In this document: positions 8,216 to 12,893 of the stretch, piece after piece | Layout of the letters: each line of letters begins with the position of its first letter | Numbering within the stretch: position 1 is the stretch's first letter | NCBI RefSeq assembly: GCF_005217525.1 | Contig: NZ_PNXQ01000012.1 | Location: 499,936 to 547,196, forward strand | Length of the DNA: 47,261 bases | From: Paenibacillus terrae | GTDB taxonomy: Bacteria > Bacillota > Bacilli > Paenibacillales > Paenibacillaceae | Reading direction: 5' to 3' | Notes under the pieces: model-generated | What the model was told of the DNA's origin: nothing | Database searches by the model: none | The model's input: only the letters and a program-made list of their open reading frames with translations | Position numbers and translations under genes: made by a program

Positions 8216-9718
8216 CTACTCTTCGAAAACACTCTTTAATCGTACTTTCAAGTACAGAGTACACCAGAAGCAGTAATGTAATACCTCCACAATCATATGA
8301 ACTGTTTCTGGCAAACCCAATGAGGATAACGCTTTGGAACACAGCGTACCAACGATAAGAATGGCTTCAAAAACGAAAATGTCCACCAACAGCACCAAGG
8401 CTGTACGGGATTTGGCTCGTTGGAAGAGCTTTAGCGTTTTGAAATTCCAGCCTGTAGCGATCAGCTCCAGTGTTATGATTCCCAGGGACATGCCGGTATA
8501 CCCGAGCTCGGGAATAGCAAGTATGGAGTAAAGAAGGATGAAATTAGAAAGTACACCTGCGCAAAGACCAATAAAGGGAGTTTTCTTTCGATTTTGTGCC
8601 CATAACACGCTGGTTGTGATTTCCCGCAATCCGACGAGTAGGGGTAACATAGCCAACGATTTAATGGGGATTTCGGCATTTTGTATACCAAAAACAAACA
8701 GGGAGATTTCTGAGGCATATTCAAAAATGAAAAAACCTGAGGCTAATCCCCAGACCCATGCTACCTGAATGGCGGTATGGCTTTTTTTGTAGAATGAGTT
8801 ATATTTCTTATTTTGCCAGTCTGCGGTTATTTTCATCGTGAGCGTATGTGTTAATGCACCTGTAATCAAAGTAGGCATATAAGCGACGACCAGGGCGATA
8901 CCCGTGACAATACCGAACATCTCCGCTGCTTCTTTGGAAGAAACCCCGGCAACCTGTAATCGTTGGGGGATAATGATCGCATCCATAAAGTCGGAAGCAG
9001 GGATAAGCAAGCGTGTAAGCGCAATAGCAAAGGAAGCTTGTACCACTAAAGGTAAATCTGCTCGACTTGATGGGGGGGATAAAGCTACAGAGGGACGGTT
9101 GTACATGAAAAAAGCAGTAAGCACAGCAAAGGCTAACAACGCGCCTGTAAAAGTTCCCAGTACCGCTCCGCCTACAGCAAACTCGATGCCGGATTGAATA
9201 AATAGTGGCACTAGCCACATTAAAGTACCGATCCTGGCGGTTTGTTCTATGATTTCCGAAAGGGCAATTGTGGTGTATCTTTCAAGCCCTTGCAAATATC
9301 CGCGCAGCAAACTTAGCAAGGGAACGGCCAATATAGCAGGGGAGAGGCAGCGAATTACAAAATCGAGCTGTGGATAGCCGAGCAAATTAGCGATCGGCTT
9401 TGATAGCCAAAAGGTTAAGATACTGCATGCCAATCCTGTGAGAATCAGGAATACAGAAAAAATTTTGAACAACCGCCAGCCTCTTGCTGTATGCTTAGCT
9501 GTAAACATACCCAAAGCTGTTGGCAATCCCCCTGAAATAATCATCAGTATTAGGCTATAGAAGGAATAGGCTAGCTGATACAGGCCCATTCCTTCAGCTC
9601 CAACAAGTCGCGTCATAAATACTTTTCCAACCAAACCGATGGCTTTTACGACAATCATCGCATTAGCCCTCACCATGGTCTGTTTTAATATAAGAGGTAA
9701 TTTCAAATCATTTTCCAC
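8216..9718 (-). CDS. SpoVB/MurJ-like polysaccharide flippase (MOP superfamily)
   Basis: A 500-residue membrane protein with about 14 hydrophobic segments and the polysaccharide-biosynthesis/SpoVB family layout. The N-terminal part reads FMTRLVGAEGMGLYQLAYSFYSL, typical of stage V sporulation protein B. SpoVB-type proteins export lipid-linked wall or cortex precursors across the membrane. The GTG at 9718 is the longest start, but no good ribosome site is visible; an ATG at 9676 is the alternative. It is the last gene of a - strand run with an amidase, a sortase and a small LPKTG protein, so it may act in spore or cell wall assembly. It is not next to other known spoVB neighbours, so it may be a paralogue. 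Confidence 0.8.
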   Translation of the reverse strand: MENDLKLPLILKQTMVRANAMIVVKAIGLVGKVFMTRLVGAEGMGLYQLAYSFYSLILMIISGGLPTALGMFTAKHTARGWRLFKIFSVFLILTGLACSILTFWLSKPIANLLGYPQLDFVIRCLSPAILAVPLLSLLRGYLQGLERYTTIALSEIIEQTARIGTLMWLVPLFIQSGIEFAVGGAVLGTFTGALLAFAVLTAFFMYNRPSVALSPPSSRADLPLVVQASFAIALTRLLIPASDFMDAIIIPQRLQVAGVSSKEAAEMFGIVTGIALVVAYMPTLITGALTHTLTMKITADWQNKKYNSFYKKSHTAIQVAWVWGLASGFFIFEYASEISLFVFGIQNAEIPIKSLAMLPLLVGLREITTSVLWAQNRKKTPFIGLCAGVLSNFILLYSILAIPELGYTGMSLGIITLELIATGWNFKTLKLFQRAKSRTALVLLVDIFVFEAILIVGTLCSKALSSLGLPETVHMIVEVLHYCFWCTLYLKVRLKSVFEE

Positions 9719-9794: not shown

Positions 9795-10919
9795 TTAATC
9801 TTGTATATGAATCAACAAATATTTGGTATTTTTATCCCACCCCAAGTCGAAGGGGACTCTAAAACGGTCTGCGGTGTGGGAGTTGACTAAGGGATAGCCA
9901 CTCTGATCAAATCCGACTACAACCGAGAAGTGGTCTACGTCTCCTTGTAATACGTAAGCAATTAAATCACCTGGAAGCAACTGGGGCTTGTTAAGATGCT
10001 GCTGTCGTTTATTGACCGATTGGACAATATCGGAGAAGCTTCCTTGTTCTATAATCCTTCCATAGCCGGAGCGTATCAGAAAATTTTTAAATGCGTCCGT
10101 TTGAACCCAGGCTTGGCTTCCACCGTTGCGATACAAGTAATGCCACCCTGATCTCATAGGCAGGCCTCCGCCTTCCTCCTTGTCTCCGATAACTTGGGAG
10201 GAGAAGTTGGTGCAATCGCCGCCTTTGGAGTTATAATCCAGGTATTTTTGATTATATCGCTGACCATTACCTGCTCCCCATGTCGTCCCTGCATATTTGT
10301 TCGCATAGTCAACGGCGCGGGCCCTGTTGTATTTATGATTAACCCTTTCTGGTGTTACCGGATCTTTATGGGGAGTAAAAAATAAGTCGGATTGTTCAAT
10401 CTTCTTTGAATTTTCTTCCAGAGGATCTGAATACCATTCACGTTCCACGTACCAACGATTATCTTTTTTTCTCAGTGTAATGCCATGACGTGTTCCAATT
10501 CCAAAATCATGCCGACCGGGATAGCTATCGATATACTCATAACTCAATTTCAAGGATTGAACAAGTGACACCTTTGCCGTATCACCCAACACCTCGGCAC
10601 GGGCTATCCGAATGGAGCTTTCCGCATTCACGAATTTCATTTTACGATGCTTGGCCCATTCTTGAATATATTCCGCTCTGTTCATTTCATGAAGGTACGC
10701 GTAGTTGCTTCGTTTATCTGTTAACAAGTAATGGTCCTCGATATGCGTTTTATCCTGATCCATCAACAACCGGGTACGGTCATCAAACAGTTCTTGAAGA
10801 AAGGGGATAACGTTATCTTGTTTAGCTGGTTCGGCTTGTGCACGAAATAAAGAAAAGCTGTAAGCGGGGATCAATATTAAGATCATGCACAGCAGTTGCA
10901 ATTTTGCCATCCTAAGCAC
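9795..10919 (-). CDS. secreted amidase-domain (Amidase_6) protein
   Basis: A 374-residue exported protein. The N-terminus has a signal peptide with a long hydrophobic core and a likely cleavage after FRAQA. A middle region has a nuclear-transport-factor-like look (about residues 35-170). The C-terminal part is the putative amidase domain (Amidase_6), with VDYANKYAGTTWG, the presumed catalytic cysteine in GGDCTNFSSQ and histidine in VDHFSVVVG. Such NlpC/P60-like proteins are thought to cut peptide bonds in the cell wall. GTG 10919 follows the sortase stop by two bases and uses AAGGAG inside the sortase end, so the two genes are coupled. The wall substrate is unknown. Confidence 0.83.
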   Translation of the reverse strand: MLRMAKLQLLCMILILIPAYSFSLFRAQAEPAKQDNVIPFLQELFDDRTRLLMDQDKTHIEDHYLLTDKRSNYAYLHEMNRAEYIQEWAKHRKMKFVNAESSIRIARAEVLGDTAKVSLVQSLKLSYEYIDSYPGRHDFGIGTRHGITLRKKDNRWYVEREWYSDPLEENSKKIEQSDLFFTPHKDPVTPERVNHKYNRARAVDYANKYAGTTWGAGNGQRYNQKYLDYNSKGGDCTNFSSQVIGDKEEGGGLPMRSGWHYLYRNGGSQAWVQTDAFKNFLIRSGYGRIIEQGSFSDIVQSVNKRQQHLNKPQLLPGDLIAYVLQGDVDHFSVVVGFDQSGYPLVNSHTADRFRVPFDLGWDKNTKYLLIHIQD

Positions 10920-10921
10920 AT

Positions 10922-11629
10922 TTATTCATTCTCCTTGAAAATGGTTGAATTGATTTTGGAAGCGTCCTTGTCTTGAACGGTAAGATTCTCACATGCTGAA
11001 TTCATGTGTGCCAATTTGGTGTAAACTACCAACCTTCCCTCGTGTTCTTTCCTGCTTCGGCTATAGCGCCCTGCACAGGTAATCAAGTTCAAACGGTGCT
11101 CTTCTGTCGAGCCAAAAATGGTCTGAATCGGTGCTTCGGAGGTTAAGTAAAATTTTACGGACTCGACAACAAACTGAATCTTACAGCCGTCAGCGCCAGT
11201 CACATACACAAAATCCCCTTTTTTCAGTTTTTTAAGAGGATAAAAAACCGCCGGTCCCGTGTATGTATCAACATGTCCGTCCATAATTGCATTACCTGCC
11301 GCTCCTGGCAGTACACCGGTAGATAAATAGCCTACTCGATCCGTGTTACCCGGAACGCCCATTTGACCATTTTCTAAATAGGTTACCGGTTCTATAATCG
11401 AATGAATTCGAACCGCAGGAATATCGATTTTATGTGGAACAATCCCTGGAAAAGGTTTATTTTTAACTTGTAAGGGCTTCGTCGTTTTAATTTGTTGAAT
11501 TTCAGGCTTAGCCGGGGTGTGGCTGGAGTTAGCATGGGAGCTACCTTGAGGTTCAGCCGAAGATGAACAGCTCGTACTACCCAGCAAAATCAATAGCACA
11601 ATAATACGAATAATCCACTTATTGTTCAT
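10922..11629 (-). CDS. sortase, class F-like, with lipoprotein-like N-terminus
   Basis: A 235-residue membrane-linked transpeptidase. After a hydrophobic N-terminus (LLILLGSTSC, possibly a poor lipobox with Cys21) and a Ser/Thr/Pro/Lys linker, the sortase barrel runs from about residue 62. The catalytic triad is visible: His119 in MDGHVDT, Cys185 in LITCAG and Arg199 in EGRLVVYTKL. The GHVDT and LITCAG contexts resemble class F sortases more than class A or B. The gene immediately upstream encodes a small protein ending in LPKTG, the obvious candidate substrate. The start ATG 11629 lacks a strong ribosome site and sits just after a hairpin, so it may be expressed at a lower level than its substrate. 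Confidence 0.88.
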   Translation of the reverse strand: MNNKWIIRIIVLLILLGSTSCSSSAEPQGSSHANSSHTPAKPEIQQIKTTKPLQVKNKPFPGIVPHKIDIPAVRIHSIIEPVTYLENGQMGVPGNTDRVGYLSTGVLPGAAGNAIMDGHVDTYTGPAVFYPLKKLKKGDFVYVTGADGCKIQFVVESVKFYLTSEAPIQTIFGSTEEHRLNLITCAGRYSRSRKEHEGRLVVYTKLAHMNSACENLTVQDKDASKINSTIFKENE

Positions 11630-11640
11630 ATGAAGAAAGA

Positions 11641-11666
11641 GAGAGGGCCTACAAGCTAACCCTCTC
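11641..11666 (-). terminator. attenuator-like hairpin between LPKTG gene and sortase
   Basis: On the - strand GAGAGGG (11666-11660) pairs with CCCTCTC (11647-11641), followed by TCTTTCTTC. The weak U-tract suggests partial termination after the small LPKTG gene, letting some transcripts continue into the sortase. This would keep substrate abundant and enzyme scarce. Confidence 0.5.
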
Positions 11667-11679
11667 CTTTTAACCCTCC

Positions 11680-11988
11680 CTAATTCATTTGCTCGCTTGC
11701 GCCACCAAATCCGGTTTTTGGTAATTTAGTAGCCTTTGCTTTCATACTTTTCGCATGAATGCTTTTTCCTCCGATCATTTTGGCAGGAGCAGCCTCACGT
11801 GCATGCAGCTTGTGAACTTTCTCATGTTTGCTCTTGGCATGCAGCTTGTGTTCATGTTTTGCATGAGCCTTAACCTTATGCTGGTGCATTTTGTGTTCAT
11901 GCTTTTCCGTTGCGGGTGCTGCAGATACCATCGATCCTACTGACAGAAGTACAGCCAGGGATGCTACAGTCAATATTGCTTTTTTCAT
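11680..11988 (-). CDS. small secreted His/Lys-rich protein with C-terminal LPKTG motif and no membrane anchor
   Basis: A 102-residue predicted exported protein. ATG 11988 has AAAGGAGG upstream and gives a clean signal peptide (MKKAILTVASLAVLLSVGSMVSAA). The mature part is very basic and rich in histidine: eleven His between residues 30 and 62, in a loosely repeated KHEH/KLHA pattern, plus His78. It ends in LPKTG at residues 89-93 followed by only nine residues (FGGASEQMN). The hydrophobic helix and basic tail of classical sortase substrates are absent. The sortase gene lies 50 bases downstream on the same strand. The His pattern suggests metal or acid-wall binding. I do not recognise the family. 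A likely role is a wall-linked peptide attached by the neighbouring sortase. Confidence 0.8.
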   Translation of the reverse strand: MKKAILTVASLAVLLSVGSMVSAAPATEKHEHKMHQHKVKAHAKHEHKLHAKSKHEKVHKLHAREAAPAKMIGGKSIHAKSMKAKATKLPKTGFGGASEQMN

Positions 11989-12101
11989 TGTATTGCCTCC
12001 TTTGGATAATTGGTAATTCATCAATATAGTTTCCGTACGAAGAAGGTTTTATGTAGCCAATGATTTCAAAGGAAAGGATTGGCTTGGAATTTTTCGACTC
12101 T

Positions 12102-12893
12102 TCACTTATTGACCTCAATCAGTCCTTCGGGAGTCCTACGATTGGCGAGCAGTTCGGATACGGTGACAAAGGTAAACCCTCTTTTTTTCAGCTCAGGTAA
12201 AATGATTTTGAGGGCTTCAACGGTTTGTGTACTTTTATATACATAATCGTGCATGAGGACGATGTCGCCGTTGCGGGCATTACGAAGCACCTTATTGACG
12301 ATTCGGTGTACACCGGGCTTTCGCCAATCCAGGGTGTCCTGATGCCAGGACCATAAAATCATTTTCTGTCCTTTTTCTTTGGATAGATTCACGAGTGTGT
12401 CGGTGTATGAACCGCCGGGTGGACGAAAAAGATGGGTTCCTGAGCCGGTGGCTTGAACGATGCTCGCCTGGCCCTGGTCTATCTCGGAAAGAGCCTTTTT
12501 ACGGGAAATATGCTGAAAGGATGGATGATGGAACGTATGGTTTCCAATCTCATGGCCTTCTCTCCGTTCCCGCTTCACAATGTCAGGGAGTTTTACTACG
12601 CGGCTGCCAACGACAAAAAAAGTCGCCTTGGCGTCATATTGCTTGAGCAAATCCAGAATGGCGGGTGTTTTGCTTTCATCCGGTCCGTCGTCGAATGTGA
12701 GGGCAATCACCTTGCGATGAGTAGGAACCTCCCAAATAATGTCCCCTCGTTCTTCATAGTAGGCTCTTCCCTTTGTAGGAGCAGGGGAGACGTACGATGC
12801 GGCTTGTGCAGTATTGGTATAGGGTGTGGGGCATAGGGTGGCACAGAACAAGGAAACAGCGATACTTGCAGACAGTACTCGGTTATATTTCAT
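12102..12893 (-). CDS. secreted polysaccharide deacetylase (NodB domain)
   Basis: A 263-residue exported carbohydrate esterase family 4 protein. The signal peptide covers about residues 1-31 (cut near AQAA). The NodB domain has the catalytic/metal motif TFDDGPD (Asp68, Asp69), the zinc histidines in GNHTFHHPSF (His119 and His123), RPPGGS, a WSWHQDTLDW segment and the late VLMHD motif. Such enzymes remove N-acetyl groups from peptidoglycan or cortex sugars (PdaA/PdaB group). It is followed 113 bases later by the LPKTG gene, so it may be the first gene of the envelope cluster or an independent neighbour. A bidirectional terminator lies upstream of it. Confidence 0.9.
   Translation of the reverse strand: MKYNRVLSASIAVSLFCATLCPTPYTNTAQAASYVSPAPTKGRAYYEERGDIIWEVPTHRKVIALTFDDGPDESKTPAILDLLKQYDAKATFFVVGSRVVKLPDIVKRERREGHEIGNHTFHHPSFQHISRKKALSEIDQGQASIVQATGSGTHLFRPPGGSYTDTLVNLSKEKGQKMILWSWHQDTLDWRKPGVHRIVNKVLRNARNGDIVLMHDYVYKSTQTVEALKIILPELKKRGFTFVTVSELLANRRTPEGLIEVNK

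Follow-up and report, generated by a model that had tools for sequence, protein, structure and literature searches.

The class F-like sortase encoded in the window (the whole stretch of 47,261 nucleotides of Paenibacillus terrae DNA analysed here) likely recognises the tail LPKTGFGGASEQMN at the C-terminus of the small protein encoded next to it. The enzyme would cleave this tail between Thr and Gly, and would attach the protein, once it has been secreted in free form, to the cell wall. On the grounds of comparative sequence analysis, we give this reading a probability of roughly 0.7. Wall sorting is usually described as a matter of three parts, namely a motif, a membrane helix and a basic tail. 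The tail found here is most likely an anchor-free sorting signal: a conserved tag devoid of anchor, with a sortase gene adjoining, suggests that the enzyme takes freely secreted proteins. The sequence-only reading of the window had left two options, either a sortase that takes free secreted substrates or a motif with a different role. The former is favoured by the linkage and co-occurrence of tail and sortase, by the conservation of the motif and by its portability.

The window protein and the adjacent sortase

The relevant features of the window are the following:

8216..9718, minus strand: SpoVB-like membrane protein of the polysaccharide-transport family (score under the SpoVB equivalog cut-off), frequently the next gene of the cluster
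9795..10919, minus strand: Amidase_6 domain protein (domain match); its frame opens 2 bases past the sortase stop
10922..11629, minus strand: class F-like sortase, 235 aa, with catalytic residues His119, Cys185 and Arg199 by alignment (domain models, alignment, predicted structure)
11632..11678, minus strand: hairpin between the substrate and sortase genes (z -2.3 at the window locus, L001)
11680..11988, minus strand: His/Lys-rich secreted-type protein, 102 aa, candidate sortase substrate (open reading frame and sequence)
11683..11724, minus strand: conserved tail LPKTGFGGASEQMN at the C-terminus (residues 89-102), a proposed sorting signal without anchor (conservation)
11725..11916, minus strand: His/Lys-rich body, residues 25-88 (sequence composition)
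11917..11988, minus strand: signal peptide, residues 1-24 (by eye and hydropathy)
11996..12003, minus strand: ribosome-binding site AAAGGAGG of the substrate gene (sequence)
12102..12893, minus strand: polysaccharide deacetylase (domain match), often alongside in relatives

The window protein starts at an ATG with the AAAGGAGG site upstream, and is 102 aa long (frame 11680-11988, minus strand); the same frame is listed among the open reading frames as 114 aa from an upstream TTG. Its C-terminus reads ...KATKLPKTGFGGASEQMN, and the stretch that covers the tail is KLPKTGFGGASEQMN. The traits that had first drawn attention to the gene were borne out. LPKTG begins at residue 89 with exactly nine residues after it, eleven histidines lie in the 33-residue stretch from residue 30, no hydrophobic segment is found beyond the signal peptide, and the sortase frame begins 50 bases past the substrate stop codon. 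Like proteins with a classical LPXTG signal, the protein has a signal peptide, an LPXTG near the C-terminus (residues 89-93 of 102) and a sortase with His, Cys and Arg; unlike them, it lacks the hydrophobic helix and the basic tail after the motif. None of the 47 distinct tail proteins, a set chosen by tail pattern, has a membrane helix after the motif, and their peak 17-residue Kyte-Doolittle mean past residue 25 is 0.23. The window protein found no family match in Pfam or NCBIfam.

The sortase belongs to the Sortase domain family PF04203 (E 5.1e-19, 68.7 bits against a cut-off of 26.6), and the NCBIfam class F model NF033748 is the best class model for it (E 6e-36 versus 7e-7 for the next). 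Because its score of 123.4 bits lies under the curated class F cut-off of 166, we call it class F-like; that cut-off was exceeded in none of the 296 genomes of the order and none of the 398 genomes of the class that were searched. Database relatives bear the name class F sortase. The predicted model has a sortase fold (mean pLDDT 80.5), and all 50 PDB matches listed for it are sortases, of other classes. The catalytic residues H119, C185 and R199 are retained in 58 of 58 sortases with a short-tail partner and in 60 of 60 with a helix-type partner, in loci that had been picked by a pattern including Cys and Arg.

The only other sortase of the genome (L208, G000:C10:32846-33214) adjoins a large protein ending LPQTGENSPAPFYLTGLAMIICGVYLKYRRMGKK, that is, an ordinary LPQTG followed by a helix and a basic tail. 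Within this genome the absence of the helix is therefore special to the window pair.

The order tail gene, sortase, Amidase_6 protein and SpoVB-like protein is found in 13 of 24 wider Paenibacillales loci, with the polysaccharide deacetylase alongside in some of them. Of 57 loci, 46 have a hairpin with z below -2 between the tail gene and the sortase, and its sequence changes from locus to locus. It may keep the sortase scarce relative to its substrate, and may act as an attenuator or mask the sortase ribosome-binding site. As for the type of upstream promoter, none of 11 consensus patterns stood clearly above shuffles in 34 non-redundant upstream stretches.

Linkage, conservation and portability of the tail

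The sequence-only reading had proposed a search of Paenibacillus genomes for short tails next to class F-like sortases. When loci were selected by the sortase only, 75 genomes yielded 21 loci, and a short-tail neighbour ending LPK[TS]G[FY]GG[AV]S... was found in 20 of them. The remaining locus (L008, genome G028) has a frameshift inside the tail motif.

A DNA pattern for the tail found matches in 30 of the 296 genomes of the order. One match is spurious (G253, a 19-codon frame); the other 29 are real tail genes, and every one encodes a secreted-type protein with a sortase directly downstream on the same strand. A chance match was rejected on these grounds, as the control pattern, the tail read backwards, gave 6 matches, spread over 6 genomes. 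With the class F model, a sortase is found in 40 of the 296 genomes, including all 29 tail genomes, and no real tail gene was found in the 256 genomes of the order without the sortase. Tail-pattern matches thus occur in 29 of 40 sortase genomes versus 1 of 256 others (Fisher p 5e-30, kinship ignored), a result that depends on a threshold of E 1e-20 and a single DNA pattern. Variant short tails exist in six further sortase genomes: they end MPKTGHGGASEQTE in G118, G214 and G272, MPQTGGGGASEWTD in G166 and MPRTGEGGASEWTD in G305, and the variant of G100 is MPQTGMGGTSK. A helix-type protein adjoins the sortase in G196 and G250; in G076 such a protein lies on the opposite strand, and the locus of G212 is truncated by the contig end.

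Two genomes deserve separate mention. G197 carries, besides the usual pair of tail gene and sortase, a second tail gene (L100:5513-5827, plus strand) that ends LPKSGFGGASEQTE and has no sortase within about 5 kb; its product could be a sortase substrate in trans. In G010 (L021/L046), both partners look as though they had decayed together: the sortase carries an internal deletion, and the tail gene no longer encodes a signal peptide.

Comparison of the motif with its flanks, another check put forward at the outset, shows much stronger conservation in the tail than in the body. When 31 proteins were aligned, 7 of 157 columns were invariant (P, K, G, G, G, S, E) and all of them lie in the tail; loss of LPKTG among relatives, which the sequence-only reading had named as a refutation, is not what we see. 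The conserved unit extends beyond LPKTG to GxGGxS, a continuation that could not be read from the window alone, any more than the use of this core with a membrane helix elsewhere in the class. Codons differ where residues stay (Pro is written with 4 codons and the first Gly with 4 in 42 distinct genes), and Ser stands in place of Thr in 9 of the 42 tails. Two protein database searches gave 60 distinct proteins, 58 of them with an intact C-terminal tail; this proportion leans towards intact tails because candidates were gathered by shared words, tail words included. Likewise, the 31 alignment rows, the 42 genes used for codons and the 47 proteins used for hydropathy were partly or wholly selected by tail patterns. 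Of the two exceptions, P0019 looks frameshifted, and P0171 (197 aa, a metagenome protein) is a tail protein joined without a break to a sortase catalytic domain; it looks like the fusion of two genes by a deletion, but may be an assembly artefact.

These relatives bear on the idea that a sequencing or frame error hides a membrane helix. An alternative frame through the tail does meet a hydrophobic segment in 14 of 57 loci, and in the window this segment is the sortase's own N-terminus. However, no alternative frame encodes a helix in 43 of the 57 loci, and 58 of the 60 proteins end in the tail. A longer gene with a helix, the finding that would have undone the original observation, was not found in the examined relatives of the sortase branch; they keep the same short ending, which refutes a hidden helix and makes an error of this kind exceedingly improbable. 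A frameshift fusion into the sortase was also considered and rejected: in the window the sortase frame is open back into the tail, and such a hydrophobic frame is missing from the same 43 loci.

Conservation is as high after the predicted cleavage site as before it. This might be expected if the sortase served to release a signalling peptide (approximately GFGGASEQMN) by proteolytic processing. Such a role seems very improbable, as no receptor or regulator was found in the conserved neighbourhood, the end of the peptide varies (EQMN, EQTE, E, N, D, K, EWTD), and the conserved GG and Ser are explained more simply by sortase recognition.

The same tail is found on unrelated bodies. Most are His/Lys repeats; L200 and L201 have Gly/Gln-rich bodies, L085 a poly-Gly body, and the large proteins L102 and L103 combine a CBM9-like domain with Gly-rich repeats. 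The tail thus behaves as a portable signal, and a tag that is kept while the body is swapped is what one would expect of a sorting signal. We weighed the possibility that the tail is a binding motif for something else and that the neighbouring sortase serves other proteins, an idea to which the second sortase of the genome lends some room. We hold it to be quite improbable given the tight linkage and co-occurrence of tail and class F-like sortase, and because the same core precedes an ordinary helix and basic tail in the partners of related sortases. Furthermore, of the 12 PxTGxGG matches in the window's genome, only the window gene encodes a protein of secreted type that carries the motif at the C-terminal end.

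Partners with and without a helix in one sortase class

The class F model matched 95 of the 398 genomes of the class, and 60 loci were hand-picked for spread among the matches listed. Short tails were found in 17 loci, helix-type partners in 38, and no partner in 5. The division follows families: all 17 loci of families f21 and f32 are short-tailed (MPKTGMGGASN and similar), and among the 43 loci of other families there are no short tails, 38 proteins with an MPxTGxG-type motif and a membrane helix, and 5 loci with no partner. Family f32 includes a sortase (L189) 88% identical to the Brevibacillus-named P0089. Several helix-type motifs are MPxTGLGT or MPxTGLGA and not GG. The 38 include L183, where the partner is a downstream protein, L182, with no match to the sortase pattern, L204, with a non-GG motif and no match to the class F pattern, and L167, present in one of two partner tables only. 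A wider tally of 121 distinct sortases (58 short, 60 helix, 3 none) overstates pairing because loci shorter than 5 kb (before L098) were passed over when they had no partner; the cleaner counts are the 20 of 21 genus loci, the 40 order genomes and the 60 class loci.

In a maximum-likelihood tree of the 121 sortases, 56 short-tail sortases fall on one supported branch (98/86) that spans at least three families of the class. The other two, L068 and L069, are placed among helix-type ones and may represent a second origin of the short-tail type; a single clade of all 58 short-tail sortases was not rejected (p-AU 0.19). The main branch is marked by Y123, V158 and E195 (54, 53 and 53 of 58 sortases), residues that may reflect ancestry only, as L068 and L069 have others there.

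The helix-type partners, found with class F-like sortases of other Bacilli families, resemble the window protein in the MPxTGxGG core that they share with the short tails and in the position of their genes next to a related sortase. They differ from it in having a membrane helix, a basic tail and larger bodies. Some carry DUF4397, and the NCBIfam sorting domain NF058571 scored over its cut-off in one of three tested. A single class of sortases thus has partners of both types, which carry almost the same core whether or not a helix follows. These sortases therefore amount to a natural experiment on the role of the helix, one that is directly testable by tail swaps.

A side observation concerns the sortases themselves. 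Many class F-like sortases of Bacilli (e.g. L066, L068, L140 and L163) have a lipobox-like N-terminus, and look as if they were anchored by lipid instead of a helix. A crude lipobox pattern is matched by 57 of the 118 sortases whose partner was typed, namely by 38 of the 58 with a short-tail partner and 19 of the 60 with a helix-type one.

Known systems and a proposed mechanism

The known system that comes closest is AbpA/SrtB of oral streptococci (PMC4974636). AbpA is a secreted protein that ends in LPKTS-AVK without helix or basic tail, and its gene is directly followed by that of a dedicated sortase, SrtB. The tail is required for wall anchoring, and SrtB cuts between Thr and Ser, anchors AbpA and makes a ladder of it; a Thr-to-Ser change abolished anchoring. 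AbpA is also present in the medium, which the authors connect to the short tail, and they regard the AbpA/SrtB type as restricted to oral streptococci.

The window pair shares with AbpA/SrtB a secreted protein with a helix-free short tail and an adjacent dedicated sortase gene. However, the window sortase is class F-like by model whereas SrtB is set apart by name, the amylase-binding body of AbpA is unrelated, and its LPKTS has no GxGGxS where PKTG plus GxGGxS stands here. Short-tail sorting is not new in itself. What would be new is a second and wider case, in which a class F-like branch appears to use an extended, portable, helix-free signal whose core is common to helix-type substrates. A literature search that had most subscription papers outside its scope found no described substrate of class F-like sortases of Bacilli, no account of this wider case, no paper pairing "class F sortase" with Paenibacillus and, judged by title, no sortase paper with "MPKTG". 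The window pair supplies a candidate substrate and recognition sequence for these enzymes. Furthermore, protein ligation and the display of secreted proteins would benefit from a small, portable tag that needs no helix and comes with a dedicated enzyme.

A tentative sequence of events is as follows. The signal peptide would export the protein, whose positive charge may hold it near the membrane. The membrane-tethered sortase would read the extended signal [LM]Px[TS]GxGG[AVTIM]S, which would replace the usual membrane hold. A Thr-Cys acyl-enzyme would form with release of a peptide of about ten residues beginning with Gly, and the protein would be passed to an amine of peptidoglycan, or to one of another copy. 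The outcome would be a wall with a covalently bound, polycationic and possibly metal-binding polypeptide.

Several points weigh against anchoring of free substrates by the window sortase. In G028, which has the sortase, the tail is frameshifted, and the second tail gene of G197 (L100) stands without a nearby sortase. The window's genome has another sortase, and the class F match is below cut-off. Ser occurs naturally in place of Thr in 9 of the 42 tails, whereas the change from Thr to Ser abolished anchoring in AbpA. Lastly, part of any free substrate would be lost to the medium.

The transfer to another copy raises a different possibility, namely that the sortase reads the tail and that its main product is a covalent polymer of copies cross-linked through lysine attack on the acyl-enzyme. 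The bodies contain 23-35% Lys (47 distinct proteins), and AbpA, the nearest precedent, is also built into a ladder by its sortase (PMC4974636). However, no conserved lysine motif is apparent, and poly-Gly and Gly/Gln bodies with few lysines carry the same tail; hence, we regard polymer as the main product as unlikely. Somewhat less unlikely, although still doubtful, is a broader proposal built on sequence traits: an entire class F-like branch that has dispensed with the membrane hold would read the eleven-residue C-terminal signal (approximately [LM]PK[TS]GxGG[AV]S[EN]) and weld polycationic His/Lys proteins that diffuse freely both to the wall and, via lysines, to each other, thus making a covalent metal-binding matrix.

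In databases, four tail proteins (P0002, P0014, P0142 and P0175) bear names such as "Ni/Co efflux regulator RcnB" or "acid shock protein". These names are probably misnaming driven by composition.
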